DNA of 38,281 nt from a virus, in IMG/VR virus record IMGVR_UViG_3300030339_000122, positions 1 through 38,281 of that record. One strand, given 5' to 3'. Position 1 is the stretch's first letter, and each line of letters starts with the position of its first letter. Positions 3,739 through 37,908 of the stretch are shown here, one piece after another. The notes below the pieces were generated by a model that saw only the letters and a list, made by a program, of their open reading frames with translations, was not told where the DNA came from and ran no database searches. A program made the position numbers and the translations under genes.

Positions 3739-4095
3739 ATGAAGACATGGCGAGATAAATAGCCCGGTTAGAGCAGGTTACACCTGTAAGTGAGGCGCAT
3801 ACAATGGTCGTTCATTGGTTTATCTCGTCTTCATGGGCTATGTAAGTTGAAGCGATTCCGACCATATTTGGTTCACTGCGATATATAAAATAAGCAGTAG
3901 CTTACATAGACCAACGCTACCAACCAGGCTCGCGCCCTCTTCGGTGATTGCATTCACTGGGAATGGTCTGTAACGAGCAAGTAGCATGATATCGTGAATT
4001 GTATCCGAAAGGGTTTGCTCGTTATCTAAACTACTTGCTTCCATGTTTTTGTTGGAGTTACCCCCAAGCACCTGTAAAAAGGTGCTATTTTATTT
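3739..4095 (+). ncRNA. large folded RNA with intrinsic terminator
   Basis: No protein gene fits here. Long perfect pairings include 3751-3759/3819-3827, 3838-3846/3901-3909 (enclosing hairpins 3860-3873 and 3875-3898) and 3971-3980/4015-4024 (enclosing ATCC-GAAA-GGGT, a GNRA-type loop at 4003-4014). A possible closing helix 3741-3750/4041-4050 uses two G-U pairs that exist only on the plus strand. A terminator ends it at 4067-4095. The 77-nt segment 3751-3827 has tRNA-like length and a D-arm-like GGTTAGAGC, but its anticodon and T arms do not fit a tRNA. Two 9-10 bp helices compete for 3976-3980 (see findings). It could be a 3' RNA of the preceding transcript or an independent RNA. Confidence 0.6.
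4067..4095 (+). terminator. intrinsic terminator
   Basis: A 7-bp stem (AGCACCT, loop GTAAAA, AGGTGCT) is followed by ATTTTATTT. The U-rich tail is present only in the plus reading. It separates the structured RNA from the next early promoter. Confidence 0.75.
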
Positions 4096-4105
4096 GCCTA
4101 AACCA

Positions 4106-4134
4106 TTTACATTTTTGCACGACCGTGATATTAT
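4106..4134 (+). promoter_or_regulatory. early promoter P2 with palindromic operator block
   Basis: TTTACA, 17 bp, TATTAT with extended TGA. The block GCACGACCGTGATATTAT (4117-4134) is identical to P1 and P3. The leader has the GAAAGGAC ribosome site, 12 nt before the ATG at 4170. It drives the 4.17-8.5 kb operon of small genes. Confidence 0.8.
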
Positions 4135-4169
4135 TAATACATCAACAAGTCACCGAAAGGACAAGTAAA

Positions 4170-4397
4170 ATGGCAGTACGAAACTCACACGTAAGGCAAT
4201 CAACCAAAGAAGTTTACGCAACACTTGACGGTAAGAAATACAGCCTAACAGCAGAAAATTGGAACGTAAACATGAACAAAGTACGTTATGCAGCGAAGAA
4301 GCTTGAACAAGGCAAGTTATCTATCCCAGTAGACGCTCAAGTTTACTACACGATTACACACTTACAAGTAACAGAAGAAGGAAAGGTGATAGCATAA
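4170..4397 (+). CDS. hypothetical protein (75 aa), first gene of the small-gene operon
   Basis: The start MAVRNSHVRQSTK follows the P2 promoter and a GAAAGGAC site. The product is basic, with a short beta-type start (VYATLDGKKYSLTAENWNVNMNKVRYAAKKLEQG) and ends HLQVTEEGKVIA. As the first gene behind an operator-bearing promoter it could be a regulator, but no helix-turn-helix is evident. TAATG overlap with the next gene. Confidence 0.7.
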   Translation: MAVRNSHVRQSTKEVYATLDGKKYSLTAENWNVNMNKVRYAAKKLEQGKLSIPVDAQVYYTITHLQVTEEGKVIA

Positions 4398-30323: not shown

Positions 30324-30584
30324 TTATCTCCCTAGTGATTGATTCTTTTTTAGTAGTTCCTGTTCAGCTTCCCACTCAATAAGTTGTGGGGTTTTAGCTT
30401 CTGAAATACCTACAGGCGTACCGTTATCAGTTGTATAGGTAGGCGCATAACTACCGGGAGTGACGCCCGCTTGTGTGATTGTATTAATTTCTAAGTCTTG
30501 AGGTTCATGCTTATATATCTTATATGTGAGAACTGCAATAACACTTAGTACAATGACGATAAGACTCAGCAGTATATCAGTCAT
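30324..30584 (-). CDS. single-span membrane protein (86 aa)
   Basis: N-terminal span ILLSLIVIVLSVIAVLTYKIY (residues about 4-24) followed by a polar tail ending EWEAEQELLKKNQSLGR. It overlaps the end of groEL by 8 nt. A spanin-like or envelope role is possible but unproven. Confidence 0.6.
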   Translation of the reverse strand: MTDILLSLIVIVLSVIAVLTYKIYKHEPQDLEINTITQAGVTPGSYAPTYTTDNGTPVGISEAKTPQLIEWEAEQELLKKNQSLGR

Positions 30585-32136
30585 GTTTTTGTTCGCGGTC
30601 TTTAAAGGTTACTGCTACCGAAGCGGTTATAAGTTTAGCGACAACTGAAGTTGAGTTGCGCACCACTTCTTTAATAACAGACGCCGGGTCAACAACACCA
30701 ACCTTTATCATATCTACAGGTTTGTAGTTAAAGTCTTCATCACGGAGGTTATACCCAAAGCCTGGTTTCGAGTTTAAGACTTTGTAGGCAGCTTGTTCCG
30801 TGTTATAGCCAGCATTATCTACAAGAGTTTTAAATGGAGCCTTGAAAGCTTCGCCAAAGTATTCAGATTTAGAGCGAAGAAGAACAGTACCACCGCCGGG
30901 AACAATACCACCATCTAAAGCAGCACGTACGGCTGAAATAGCGTCATCGGCACGTAGCTTGACTTCAACCTGTTCAACCTCTGTAGCCCCACCAACACGG
31001 ATAATAGCAACCTTACCGGTTAGCTTTGAAATACGGTCATGTAATGCTTCTCGAGTTCCCTGTGATTCAGATTCAGCCAGTTGTTGGCGTAGGTCATTAA
31101 TACGCTTTTGGGCAACGTCTGATTGACCCTGAGCACCAATAATAGTTGTCTCAAGTTCATTGATGATTACCTTATCAGCACCGCCAAGCATATCTTTAGT
31201 AAATGAGTTAGGATTAGCGCCAATAGTAAGAACTTGGCCACCAGTCACGATTGCAATGTCTTCAAGGAACAATGAACGCATTGGGCCAGAATTAGGAACG
31301 TCTACTACAGTTGCGTTCAAGACACCCTTTAACTTATTAAGAATAAGAGTAGCAAGTGCTTCTTCTTGCACATCGGCAATTATAACTACTTCAGCGCCCT
31401 GGTTGCCACCTTCAATAATCTTACCGATTAATGGGGTAATGTCGGCAGCGGTTCGAAGGGGTTTATCAGAGATAAGAATATCAACGTCTTCATGTACCGA
31501 TTGCACGGCCGTTGGGTCATTAATAAGATTGACGTGCGTAAAGCCCCGGCGGAAATAAAGACCCTTAACAAGTTCGGAGTAAGTGCCCGAACCAGCAAAA
31601 TCCTCTACAATAACACCGCCATCAAGCCCAACTGCACCAATTACATCGGCAATTAGATGGCCTAATGCTTCGTCGCCAGCTGATACAACTGCTACGTGCT
31701 TTAGTAATTTGGAATCAACATCAATTTTAATTTTATCAATCTGTGCAATAATTTCTAAAGCAGTTTTTTCAAGCATCTTTGCTACTTGCATACGATTGTA
31801 GCCAGCACCAATAAGTTTCCGTGCTTCTTTATAAAGGTTACGAGCCAAGATAACTACAGCAGTAGTACCATCGCCTACCTTAGTATTGTTTTTCTTAGAG
31901 GCCTGTACGATTGTCCGAGCAGCCATATTTTCTACAGCGTCTTCAAGATAAACATTCTTTACGTTCGTAACACCATCACGGCTAATCATTGGGTCGCCAT
32001 AAGGAAGCTCTAGGATTGCGTTACCCGCACCCGGCCCATAAGCAGCTTTAGCAACCTTATATATAGCCTCAACACCACGGGCAATTTTTGCATCTAATTC
32101 TTCATCTGAAATAACTTCACGTACTTGTTTACTCAC
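30577..32136 (-). CDS. groEL: GroEL-type chaperonin
   Basis: It is the 60-kDa chaperonin subunit that folds proteins with GroES in an ATP-driven double ring. The start is a GTG (VSKQVREVISDEEL) with GAGG upstream, inside the end of groES. The 519 residues show group I signatures: AYGPGAGNAILE, ISRDGVTNVKNVYLED, NTKVGDGTTAVVILARNLYKEA (ATP site), AVVSAGDEALGHLIADVIGAVGLDGGVIVED, DDAISAVRAALDGGIVPGGGTVLLR. It lacks the Gly-Met-rich C-terminal tail and is about 25 residues shorter than typical GroEL. A phage copy probably helps fold its own capsid or tail proteins or replaces a host chaperonin under stress. Confidence 0.95.
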   Translation of the reverse strand: MSKQVREVISDEELDAKIARGVEAIYKVAKAAYGPGAGNAILELPYGDPMISRDGVTNVKNVYLEDAVENMAARTIVQASKKNNTKVGDGTTAVVILARNLYKEARKLIGAGYNRMQVAKMLEKTALEIIAQIDKIKIDVDSKLLKHVAVVSAGDEALGHLIADVIGAVGLDGGVIVEDFAGSGTYSELVKGLYFRRGFTHVNLINDPTAVQSVHEDVDILISDKPLRTAADITPLIGKIIEGGNQGAEVVIIADVQEEALATLILNKLKGVLNATVVDVPNSGPMRSLFLEDIAIVTGGQVLTIGANPNSFTKDMLGGADKVIINELETTIIGAQGQSDVAQKRINDLRQQLAESESQGTREALHDRISKLTGKVAIIRVGGATEVEQVEVKLRADDAISAVRAALDGGIVPGGGTVLLRSKSEYFGEAFKAPFKTLVDNAGYNTEQAAYKVLNSKPGFGYNLRDEDFNYKPVDMIKVGVVDPASVIKEVVRNSTSVVAKLITASVAVTFKDREQKHD

Positions 32137-32392
32137 TCTTATAACCTCGAATATCATTAATATCAATAAAGGCAAATATCTTATCGCCGTCTTTTACTTG
32201 AGAGTCATCCTTGAAACCCTCAAAGTATATTTTGCTTCCGATTGGAGGTAGGTCTTTAGCGTCTTCATCAGTTACTTTTAATAATATGCCACTTGTCTTT
32301 GTGTCATACTTTTTTTCTACTGTGTAGACTCCTTCCCATTCTTCCGTTAGTTCAACTAATACGTTTCCGTTCATAGGTAAGAGATTTATCAT
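32129..32392 (-). CDS. groES: GroES co-chaperonin
   Basis: The 87 residues start MINLLPMNGNVLVELTEEWEGVYTVEKKY, continuing KTSGILLKVTDEDAKDLPPIGSKIYFEGF, GDKIFAFIDINDIRGY. The LLPMNGNVLVE start and SGILL mobile-loop anchor match GroES. It would cap the GroEL ring. The start is set by a leaderless promoter with TACAAT 6 nt upstream of ATG. The end overlaps the groEL start by 8 nt, ensuring coupled expression. Unlike some phage co-chaperonins (such as T4 gp31), this phage carries both partners. Confidence 0.9.
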   Translation of the reverse strand: MINLLPMNGNVLVELTEEWEGVYTVEKKYDTKTSGILLKVTDEDAKDLPPIGSKIYFEGFKDDSQVKDGDKIFAFIDINDIRGYKSE

Positions 32393-34833: not shown

Positions 34834-34973
34834 GCCACGAATTTGAACTACAAGAGGCAACTGAAGAGTTGTATGAAGCCTCGTTAGAACTTAACAAAGC
34901 TAGTGAGCGCTATAACCAAGCTATCTTGGCTCGCATTGCGCTACGGACAATTATTAATCAGGAGAACCACTAA
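34830..34973 (+). CDS. small acidic coiled-coil protein (47 aa)
   Basis: ATGA overlap at the start and TAATG overlap at the end. Helical (ELQEATEELYEASLELNKASERYNQAILARIALR). Unknown. Confidence 0.5.
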   Translation: MSHEFELQEATEELYEASLELNKASERYNQAILARIALRTIINQENH

Positions 34974-35185
34974 TGGAGTTTATTCACGATACCCCGTACA
35001 ACAAACATGAACACAATCATCTTGAATGGACAGATGAACAACTAAGCAATGAAGCGGCCCTATGTGAGCTTTTGCTTGATAAATGGCAAGTAAGTGAGGA
35101 ACGACGCAAACAACTTGGCAAACGCGCTCTACTCACGCGAGAAGAGATCATAAACCGCTATGGTGAACGTTACCAAGAAAGTTAG
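34973..35185 (+). CDS. hypothetical protein (70 aa)
   Basis: GGAG precedes the overlapping start. Starts MEFIHDTPYNKHEHNHLEW (His-rich), then a charged helix. It overlaps the next open frame by 26 nt if the longer start there is used. Confidence 0.55.
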   Translation: MEFIHDTPYNKHEHNHLEWTDEQLSNEAALCELLLDKWQVSEERRKQLGKRALLTREEIINRYGERYQES

Positions 35186-35522
35186 AGTTAATATGGAACA
35201 AGAACCTAGTTTTACGGTTGAAATTAACGATAAGAAATATGAGCTATCCCAGAGCAATACGACGCTCTATCGCCATTTAGGAGCTAAGGCACTTGACCAT
35301 TTCTTTTTAAAAATTGGTGAAACAGAAACCACCATAACTGGTACCCGTTTCTTCCGTGAAATATTTGCAGAAGATTCTTTTGATACTACCTCTAATTACA
35401 TGCTACAAAAAGGTTATGAAGCTCACTTAAATATCCACGAACCAGGCGAGGATGATATGGAAGCCTATATTCGCTTTAGTAACCGAAGCGAAGAAACACC
35501 CGACTGGCTTCCCGAAGCTTAA
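35160..35522 (+). CDS. hypothetical protein (120 aa; or 109 aa from 35193)
   Basis: The start at 35160 has GAAGAG upstream. MEQEPSFTVEINDKKYELSQ at 35193 is an alternative start that avoids overlap. Beta-rich and acidic (YRHLGAKALDHFFLKIGETETTITGTRFFREIFAE, ending PDWLPEA). Last protein gene before the 1.4-kb noncoding region. Confidence 0.55.
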   Translation: MVNVTKKVRVNMEQEPSFTVEINDKKYELSQSNTTLYRHLGAKALDHFFLKIGETETTITGTRFFREIFAEDSFDTTSNYMLQKGYEAHLNIHEPGEDDMEAYIRFSNRSEETPDWLPEA

Positions 35523-35555
35523 AAGGGGCGGTTACACTGGTCAAAAACCGCCCCT
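35521..35555 (-). terminator. leftward terminator of RNA E
   Basis: A perfect 10-bp stem AGGGGCGGTT/AACCGCCCCT (35524-35533 with 35546-35555) is followed by TTTT in the leftward reading. On the rightward strand there is no T run, though it may still slow the late transcript. Confidence 0.65.
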
Positions 35556-35774: not shown

Positions 35775-36333
35775 ACCTTTAATAGTCCCTATTTTTTGAA
35801 CGTAACCGCTCAGGGGGACTCTGACATGTGCGAGGTGTTCAATTCATGGAGCGATGCTCTTGGACATTGATAAGCCTTGCTGTTGTGTATTCCCCTGTTC
35901 TGGTAGCGACATCAATGTCGGAACCAAATGGGTATTGAAGGTATGTGAGAGGGTACTGGTGTGTTGTCGCTTCACTCCCACTCTACGAATTTGGCTTGCG
36001 GACTGGATACCGTTGTCCTACCGTGTTACTCAGGATTGCTCCTTTTAGTAGTTCCCCCACAGTTACCTTCAATTGTTATAGACAGAAATGGAGCTGGGCG
36101 ACTGTGTGAGGTAAGGATTTCATAATCGCTAATGTTGCGATTATTGCTAGCTTTCCCGCCTCAGAGTAAGCACTCCCCATTGCCATCTATAACTATACTT
36201 AATTGTTAAGGTAAAAGTGGTCATTGACGCACCTCCTGTACCACAAGCCGTACAGGTAGCCATGTTCCTTTTATTTACTTGGCTCTTTTACGTCCCCAAG
36301 TCGGTGCAGGAAACCGTCCCTAGACTGAACATA

Positions 36334-36458
36334 AGAAAAACGCCCGGTTAGGGGCGTTCCATAGTCATCTGTCATATATTATTATAGACAAGATTAATAA
36401 GAATGCAAGCCCCTACGCTTGTTTTAATAGCAAGTCATTTTTGACAGATGACGAGCTA
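36334..36458 (-). ncRNA. small RNA D
   Basis: Consensus-like promoter TTGTAA, 17 bp, TATAAT (36465-36493) gives a start near 36458. The RNA of about 125 nt has a perfect 11-bp stem (36442-36452 with 36364-36374) enclosing a hairpin CAAGC/GCTTG. It ends with terminator AACGCCC/GGGCGTT plus five U at 36336-36358. The promoter of RNA E lies in its central loop region. Confidence 0.65.
36336..36358 (-). terminator. leftward terminator of RNA D
   Basis: 7-bp GC-rich stem (36339-36345 with 36352-36358) and TTTTTCTT in the leftward reading only. It also lies in the first 40 nt of the proposed RNA E transcript, repeating the promoter-hairpin order of the late genes. Confidence 0.7.
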
Positions 36459-36493: not shown

Positions 36494-36496
36494 TAA

Positions 36497-36576
36497 GAAA
36501 ATCACCGCTTCCTAACAACAATGGGGACAGCGGTGATAAAACTTGGAGGGTATATTGGTCAGGTGCGTAACCAATG
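36497..36576 (-). ncRNA. small RNA C with exposed CCCUCC
   Basis: Promoter TTGTTG (36606-36611), 18 bp, TATTAT (36582-36587) overlaps the AGGCAT motif region. The RNA of about 80 nt has hairpin ATTGGT/ACCAAT (36570-36575 with 36554-36559), a single-stranded linker containing CCCUCC (36545-36550), and a terminator with a 19-nt loop containing UCCCC. Exposed CCUCC could pair with Shine-Dalgarno sequences. Confidence 0.6.
36498..36537 (-). terminator. leftward terminator of RNA C
   Basis: Perfect 9-bp stem ATCACCGCT/AGCGGTGAT (36501-36509 with 36529-36537), then TTTTCTTATT leftward. Rightward it is followed by AAAACTTGG, not a T run. Confidence 0.65.
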
Positions 36577-36598
36577 CCTACATAATAACATAAGCAAT

Positions 36599-36628
36599 GA
36601 AAAAACAACAAGCTCGAAAGCCTGTTGT
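36599..36628 (-). terminator. leftward terminator of RNA B
   Basis: Stem ACAACAGGCT/AGCTTGTTGT with a UUCG loop is fully paired leftward thanks to one G-U; the rightward strand has an A-C mismatch there. Six T follow leftward. This settles the direction. Confidence 0.75.
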
Positions 36629-36732
36629 AATGTTTGTTTAAGAGTGTACCCATTCATATGAAAGGTGAGTATATATGAAACCTAAGGTGCGTTGCTTGAC
36701 AGGTTCCGGATTGCTTACCGGTATCAAGTAAT
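36599..36732 (-). ncRNA. small RNA B
   Basis: Promoter TTGTAA (36762-36767), 17 bp, TATTAT (36739-36744), start near 36732. The RNA of about 134 nt has a 5' stem CTTGA/TCAAG around a CCGG hairpin, an AU-rich middle, and a terminator with UUCG in its loop. No ribosome site plus open frame was found in it. Confidence 0.55.
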
Positions 36733-36774: not shown

Positions 36775-36808
36775 AAGAAAAACCGCAGACGGTGGGCGAA
36801 CTGCGGTT
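36775..36808 (-). terminator. leftward terminator of RNA A
   Basis: Perfect 8-bp stem AACCGCAG/CTGCGGTT (36781-36788 with 36801-36808) followed leftward by TTTCTTTTTCTT. Confidence 0.7.
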
Positions 36809-36884
36809 AATCTCATCGGGGTGAAAGGACTAAGTAGCATAAAGACACTACAAAAGCTCCCGATATATTCCTATCATAACAGAT
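36775..36884 (-). ncRNA. small RNA A (weak promoter)
   Basis: A leftward TATAAT (36890-36895) with no good -35 would start a transcript of about 110 nt. It has a CGGG/CCCG helix enclosing GTAG/CTAC and ends in a strong terminator. It is the first member of the leftward array. Confidence 0.4.
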
Positions 36885-36978: not shown

Positions 36979-37908
36979 ATGCCAACACTAGTCGAAGTAA
37001 AAGATGAAATTAAAGAATCACTTGTAGATATAAATAAATCGTTTGTAGATAAGTTTTTGTCTTACTACGACGATTCTGCCCGAGCAGAGCAAGGTAAAAA
37101 TAGCAAAGGCTATGATAAGCCTAAAACAGTAAGTTCACAGCCGGTAGAGGTATTGTCTGGGTTAGTTAAAAAATTCCATAACCTTGGATTACCAATAGAC
37201 GGTGTAAATGTCGTTATCACTGGTAAGAATATGGCTATGGTTACGTATAACGGTTATAAGAATAAGGTACTTGAAACCTACCCAGAAACAGAGTTTGATG
37301 TACAGCTGATACGAGAAGGCGATACCTATAGCTTTGCAAAAGAAAGCGGTTCGGTGATTTACTCTCACAATATCAGCGACCCATTCGCAGATAGCGAACC
37401 TAAAATTATCGGTGCGTACTGTGTTATTAAGAACAAGCGGGGTGAATTTCTTGAAACCTTGAATATGAACGATTACAAAGAAATGAAAAGCGGTAGCAAA
37501 CAATCTGCTTTATGGGATAAATGGGCAAGTGAGTTTTGGCTTAAATCGGTTATTAAACGTGCTTGTAAACGCCACTTTAATGATATTGTTTCTGATATTG
37601 ATAAAGTTGACAACGAAGATTTTGGTTTATCTGATGAGATAGTAGACAGAAGCACACCAACTGAGAAATGGGTGCCACGTTCGGATGAACCTATGAGCGA
37701 ACAGCAAAAAGAAATCCTTGACAACCAACTACGTCAACGAAGCATTACGACCGATGACGAAAAGAATAACTGGATGTGGGACAACTATGGTGCTGGATAT
37801 GATTTACTTACCGAGGAACAAGCCGCAGCCGTTATAAGTGACCTACAGGCTGAATATAAAGAAGGACTAGCTAATACAAAGCAAGTTAGAGATAGGTCAA
37901 AAGAATAA
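36979..37908 (+). CDS. recT: RecT-family single-strand annealing protein
   Basis: It binds single-stranded DNA and anneals complementary strands in phage recombination and possibly in replication by recombination. The 309 residues contain the RecT pattern: EVLSGLVKKFHNLGLPIDG, the GAYCVIKNKRGEFLETLNMNDYKEMKSGSKQSALWDKWASEFWLKSVIKRACKRHF block (a conserved MxxKTxxRRxxK-like helix), and an acidic C-terminal tail with SEQQKEILDNQLRQRSITTDDEKNNWMWDNYG. First gene of the early operon behind P3. No RecE/YqaJ exonuclease is present. Confidence 0.8.
   Translation: MPTLVEVKDEIKESLVDINKSFVDKFLSYYDDSARAEQGKNSKGYDKPKTVSSQPVEVLSGLVKKFHNLGLPIDGVNVVITGKNMAMVTYNGYKNKVLETYPETEFDVQLIREGDTYSFAKESGSVIYSHNISDPFADSEPKIIGAYCVIKNKRGEFLETLNMNDYKEMKSGSKQSALWDKWASEFWLKSVIKRACKRHFNDIVSDIDKVDNEDFGLSDEIVDRSTPTEKWVPRSDEPMSEQQKEILDNQLRQRSITTDDEKNNWMWDNYGAGYDLLTEEQAAAVISDLQAEYKEGLANTKQVRDRSKE

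Follow-up and report, generated by a model that had tools for sequence, protein, structure and literature searches.

The question raised by this locus is what occupies a stretch of 1,456 bases that lacks open reading frames (ORFs) of at least 75 amino acids, bounded by the end of a plus-strand gene at 35522 and the start of the RecT gene at 36979, in the IMG/VR phage record IMGVR_UViG_3300030339_000122. The window analyzed here is the whole stretch of 38,281 bases. We found that 35790-36328 of this window is a structured, non-coding element; it belongs to a rare family of large, structured elements carried by phages and prophages. With a probability of about 60%, judging from sequence comparison, these elements represent a new family of large structured phage RNA outside the Rfam models of GOLLD and ROOL, probably transcribed from the minus strand and, by analogy, a scaffold resembling those two RNAs.

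Homologs of the gene-free segment

A sequence-only reading of this DNA had described 35810-36328 as an ornate RNA of about 520 nucleotides (nt) with nested helices and GOLLD/ROOL character. It had named a significant protein hit as evidence against this; the ORF list of the window shows that every ORF in the segment is at most 64 amino acids, and a coding gene was rejected on this ground. The six pairings listed in that reading are all exact Watson-Crick complements. Stems in 35810-36328 were then compared with those in 30 shuffles, which gave 4 stems of at least 8 base pairs (bp) versus 1.4 expected (shuffle maximum, 3), 1 of at least 10 bp versus 0.07 expected, and 88 of at least 5 bp versus 88.5 expected. 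Therefore, long helices exceed chance, whereas pairs of 4-5 bp alone do not. Against shuffles, 35790-36365 yielded folding z-scores of -2.1 on the plus strand and -4.3 on the minus strand.

Homologs were searched by sensitive nhmmer with only the window as the query, the target loci having been chosen by protein similarity. This revealed prophage loci in a Kocuria contig (L047; E 5.9e-9) and in Arthrobacter cavernae PO-11 (L043, contig NZ_JAFNLL010000005; E 1.8e-7). Four IMG/VR phage contigs (L205, L220, L223, and L228) were recovered as members using patterns from shared blocks, and a DNA search within the taxonomic family of L043 identified a Micrococcaceae genome (L222) carrying only domain A, one of the outer domains described below. 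Further pattern hits (L201-L204, L206-L211, L226, and L227), together with the L168 hit, were set aside, since the profile gave them no support. A new family calls for homologous sequence in independent phages, and such sequence was present. The nearest syntenic relative is L228, whose ORFs 259-501 and 3848-4222 resemble, by eye, window 34973-35185 and 35160-35522, and whose element lies directly after ORF 3848-4222, which is the matching place in the window (after 35160-35522). No RNA counterpart was found in L002, the closest phage by RecT (88% identity). Among the actinobacterial genomes searched, only G053 and G054, plus G313 for domain A, had members, and additional sampling yielded none; thus, the family looks rare in actinobacteria.

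Blastn, by which the earlier reading would have collected homologs, detected no family members when the window and the homolog RNAs were compared with phage and plasmid collections. The Rfam check that it had proposed on both strands was run by cmscan against Rfam 15. At gathering scores the window had zero matches; with E relaxed to at most 5, weak ones appeared, all lying elsewhere than in the segment. Neither the segment nor any relative convincingly matched an Rfam family on either strand, and the GOLLD and ROOL models in particular stayed unmatched in the gathering and E-value modes, including below the gathering score. Assignment to GOLLD or ROOL was thus not borne out in the window or any homolog, while the suggestion that this may be a new class stands, as the element is outside every Rfam family. 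No description of the RNA family was found in the part of the literature that our search covered.

Domain architecture and compensatory change

The element and its parts are as follows.

35790..36328 (ends approximate, ~540 bases), minus strand (putative): predicted large structured non-coding RNA, from nhmmer homologs, covarying helices, and A/T bias
35811..35897, minus strand: domain A equivalent, closed by CAGGGG 35811-35816/CCCCTG 35892-35897; 3' end of the putative minus-strand RNA
35934..36073, minus strand: domain C, with outer helix 35934-35943/36064-36073, GTG 35945-35947/CAC 36058-36060, a bulge, and GGG 35951-35953/CCC 36054-36056
36075..36193, minus strand: domain D, closed by 36075-36082/36186-36193; interior variable, tRNA-like in L047
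36201..36213, minus strand, given in plus-strand reading: conserved AATTGTTAAGGTA motif that opens domain E
36201..36328, minus strand: domain E, 5' end of the putative minus-strand RNA; 36316-36320 can close with 35815-35819

Across the family, the element measures ~330-690 nt, the outer domains A and E are conserved, and the middle domains C and D are optional and variable: domain D is absent from L228, and both C and D are absent from L220. Covariation was counted in a few members, with helix arms picked by hand and homolog helices aligned by hand. On the plus strand, domain C reads ATTGAAGGTA/TACCTTCAAT, then GTGA/TCAC, a bulged GA, and a variable arm. Its outer helix showed Watson-Crick pairing in 56 of 60 cells in six members and says less because it is nearly invariant. 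The inner helix was paired in 32 of 33 cells in four members, and 4 of 9 pairs had double-sided changes (arm shuffles as good, 86/2000). Domain D, GTTATAGA/TCTATAAC plus an extension in the same reading, gave 46 of 47 Watson-Crick cells in five members for its outer helix, with double-sided change at 6 of 11 pairs (18/2000), and its extension helix changed on both sides at 6 of 9 pairs (21/2000). The folding z-score of this domain in the window was -4.48 on the minus strand and -2.40 on the plus strand. For the helix closing domain E, 3 of 8 pairs changed on both sides (25/2000). Double-sided substitutions that keep helices, a further mark of a new family, were thus present in these hand-chosen arms.

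These data back the large ornate element of the sequence-only reading. Homologs that break its helices were to count against it, and the opposite was observed for both long ones (35934-35943/36064-36073 and 36075-36082/36186-36193), the second being kept through many double-sided substitutions. Its other pairings fared less well. The closure of the distant ends by 35815-35819/36316-36320 (GGGAC/GTCCC) has, by eye, a position-equivalent GGGGAG/CTCCCC in six homologs, but there this pairing, which could join the domain A G-run to a CTCCCC at the distal end of domain E, competes with the local domain A helix, and a 5-bp pair alone is at chance level. Helix 36211-36217/36285-36291 has a position-equivalent in L228 (AAGGTA/TACCTT) and only a partial one in L205 and L223 (GGTA/TACC), again by eye. 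The pair 36229-36233/36303-36307, thought to cross it as a pseudoknot, was without support.

In homologs, the plus-strand reading of domain A is GGGGAGTT...AACTCCCC with inner helices. The window domain has diverged from GGGGAGTT/AACTCCCC and is equated with it by position, not by sequence; position-equivalents occur in six homologs and in the domain-only copy L222. Domain E of the homologs combines AATTGTTAAGGTA with a conserved core, ATCAGTACAAAGCARRCTTTACG, which has diverged in the window. The opening motif is AATTGTTAAGGTA in L228, AATTGTTAAAGTA in L043, and AATTGTGAAGGTA in L205 and L223. A conserved minus-strand frame in domain E was rejected as coding, since a one-base deletion in L223 breaks it.

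One variable arm is tRNA-like. On the minus strand, domain D of L047 contains AGTGGCGGAATAGGTAGACGC, the D-arm of tRNA-Leu, together with a T-arm-like GCAGGG...GCAAATCCCTGC and an acceptor-like stem, and this region folded with z-scores of -6.5 (minus) and -4.8 (plus). The related phage contig L172 has the same set of features. ARAGORN found no tRNAs in the window or the homologs. A cloverleaf sketched by hand in domain D of L043 was discarded, as neither Rfam nor folding backs it.

Strand, mode of action, and competing explanations

The element is quite probably read from the minus strand, which is favored by the A/T bias, the minus-strand position of the L047 tRNA-Leu-like module, and a plus-strand terminator in L228. 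All seven members have more T than A on the plus strand, so the minus strand is A-rich throughout; 42% of its unpaired bases are A, and A-rich unpaired bases are a general trait of structured RNAs. The local AT skew flips from the flanks, reaching -0.139 at the element. The terminator in L228 (~4337-4365) abuts the element, leaving, by eye, little room for a plus-strand promoter. The whole-element folding z-score was lower on the minus strand in 5 of 7 members; the minus strand also folded better for domain C in 4 of 6 members (L043 being level) and for domain D in 4 of 5.

Alternatively, the plus strand could encode the same RNA, in the direction in which the upstream genes of the window run. 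In the helix closing domain E, five G-U pairs occur in the plus-strand reading, against zero in the minus-strand reading; the end pair of domain A is G-U in four members, and in several members the plus-strand fold of domain A equals or betters the minus-strand one. We nevertheless regard this as unlikely, considering the T excess and U-rich unpaired bases on the plus strand in addition to the L047 module and the arrangement in L228.

Several observations weigh against a new, minus-transcribed RNA family. The domain A model R1 misses the window, a diverged member whose domains A and E are recognized by position more than by sequence. The covariation counts lean towards structure because the helix arms were hand-chosen, and for most members the folding of domain E does not surpass that of shuffles. 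A clear tRNA-like module is seen only in L047 (and, stand-alone, in L172); neither ARAGORN nor Rfam calls it, and the window shows no evident one. Domain z-scores fail to separate the strands (p 0.34), and G-U pairs in plus versus A-C in plus (equal to G-U in minus) stood at 10:9 in hand-picked helices and at 49 to 50 in a strand-symmetric fold. Such near-parity indicates no strand preference, as expected also of DNA-level structure.

A structured DNA element, single-stranded or cruciform (e.g., an origin, recombination, or packaging site), would explain these figures, because DNA pairing predicts near parity of G-T and A-C mismatches. This explanation is nonetheless improbable in view of the consistent A/T strand bias and the tRNA-like sequence in one member, and RNA fits better with middle domains that are optional and with long unpaired motifs that are conserved.

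As for how a minus-strand RNA of this family might operate, the step we hold most certain is that the element would act as RNA, followed by its reading from the minus strand, which would place domain E at the 5' end and domain A at the 3' end. Less certain, the G-run/C-run helix may hold the RNA ends together. Least certain, the RNA may work in trans as a free-standing folded molecule, as suggested by flanking genes that differ between members. By analogy, it would most likely act as a GOLLD- or ROOL-like RNA scaffold produced during infection, a variable arm of which could carry a module, such as the tRNA-Leu-like structure in the Kocuria prophage.

To our knowledge, very few large ornate phage RNAs of known fold exist (GOLLD and ROOL). 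The element resembles these two most in kind, and we propose by analogy that it may work like them. Both are phage-encoded, large, cage-forming, and of unknown function, and the GOLLD linker sometimes holds tRNAs (PMC12286853). Like GOLLD (RF02032), the present family consists of large ornate phage or prophage RNA-like elements with one conserved end and a less conserved region (PMC12286853); unlike it, the element is ~330-690 nt, whereas many GOLLD RNAs exceed 800 nt. A tRNA in or beside the RNA is frequent, though not universal, in GOLLD; here ARAGORN called none in the window or the homologs, and domain D of L047 has the tRNA-Leu-like module. With ROOL (RF03087) it shares phage encoding, nested helices, and a similar length (659 nt in a solved ROOL example; PMC12286853), but the window element is not near tRNAs. 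That the family is a very diverged GOLLD or ROOL is highly improbable, as all members left both Rfam models unmatched on either strand even below the gathering score.

Flanking genes vary between members. The gene that follows in L043, L205, L223, and L220 shares its strand with the minus RNA, as a long 5' leader controlling that gene would require; these genes look mutually unrelated by eye, and the neighbor is convergent in the window, L228, and L047, which favors a free-standing RNA and makes a leader scarcely credible.

Going beyond a new minus-strand family, it is a doubtful but conceivable extension that these elements form a modular class of large phage RNA, in which a closed scaffold bears swappable arms, one being a tRNA-Leu mimic with a T-loop insertion that serves as a tRNA decoy or as RNA-cage cargo. 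A further family, unrelated to GOLLD and ROOL, with modular arms and one member in a named strain of Arthrobacter, would make it possible to ask what features these RNAs have in common; the tRNA-like arm seen in one member is a hint of some connection with tRNA biology in infected cells.

Transcription signals and other elements nearby

Three features flank the element.

36381..36408, minus strand: candidate promoter TTGCAT-16-TATAAT (consensus match only), oriented towards the RNA
36337..36360, minus strand: terminator-like hairpin with a U run, between the candidate promoter and the RNA
35520..35555, minus strand: terminator-like hairpin AGGGGCGGTT/AACCGCCCCT followed by TTTTA, seen in the sequence itself, where the plus-strand gene 35160-35522 ends

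If the promoter serves the RNA, hairpin 36337..36360 would need to be leaky because of its position between them. The same promoter-like element is present in L002, and L043 has, by eye, TTGCAT-16-CATAAT. Hairpin 35520..35555, paired in two folds and not listed by the terminator scan, is possibly the 3' end of the minus transcript.

The promoter region belongs to a small element that recurs at window 36337-36451 (minus strand), L002 7480-7600, and, by eye, L043 3669-3804. A promoter-like TTGCAT-16/17-TATAAT is followed ~20 nt on by a terminator-like hairpin, and a sequence of 11-13 bases 3' of the promoter is repeated inverted upstream of it; this sequence varies between phages, with the inverted copy kept. 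Just beyond domain E in L205, L223, L047, L220, and L228 (e.g., L228:4792-4915), we noted by eye a plus-strand promoter-like TTGCAT/TTGAAT-16/17, a short stretch, and a terminator hairpin flanked by a direct repeat of ~12-15 bases. More minus-strand terminator-like hairpins lie upstream of RecT in the window (36494-36647 and 36778-36812), with similar ones in L002, which suggests a series of small minus-strand RNAs.

Stand-alone tRNA-Leu-like elements were seen in other phages. L172:5840-6060 (minus strand), on a related phage contig, has a large T-loop insertion and matches domain D of L047. Two isolated phages also carry the tRNA-Leu D-arm sequence in stand-alone form. Bacillus phage vB_BauS_KLEB27-1 (L233; 990-1125, minus strand) has an unannotated sequence resembling tRNA-Leu, in which the T-loop is TGCAAAT and the anticodon region is unusual. 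Lacticaseibacillus phage R24.2 (L232; 2200-2660, minus strand) has degenerate tRNA-like elements, unannotated and arranged in a row, within a kilobase free of genes; ARAGORN calls none of them. Domain D of L047 and all three phages have in common the D-arm GTGGCGGAATAGGTAGACGC and a T-arm whose loop contains GCAAAT; the phage elements differ from the family in being stand-alone, and domain D of the window shows nothing evident of the kind.

The window has a terminal repeat of 48 bases and phage genes for a terminase large subunit, a portal protein, a RecT-like protein, and a chaperonin. The last, at 30577-32175 (minus strand), is GroEL-like (Cpn60, Pfam E 7e-48), and another GroEL-like chaperonin occurs in a TM7 phage.
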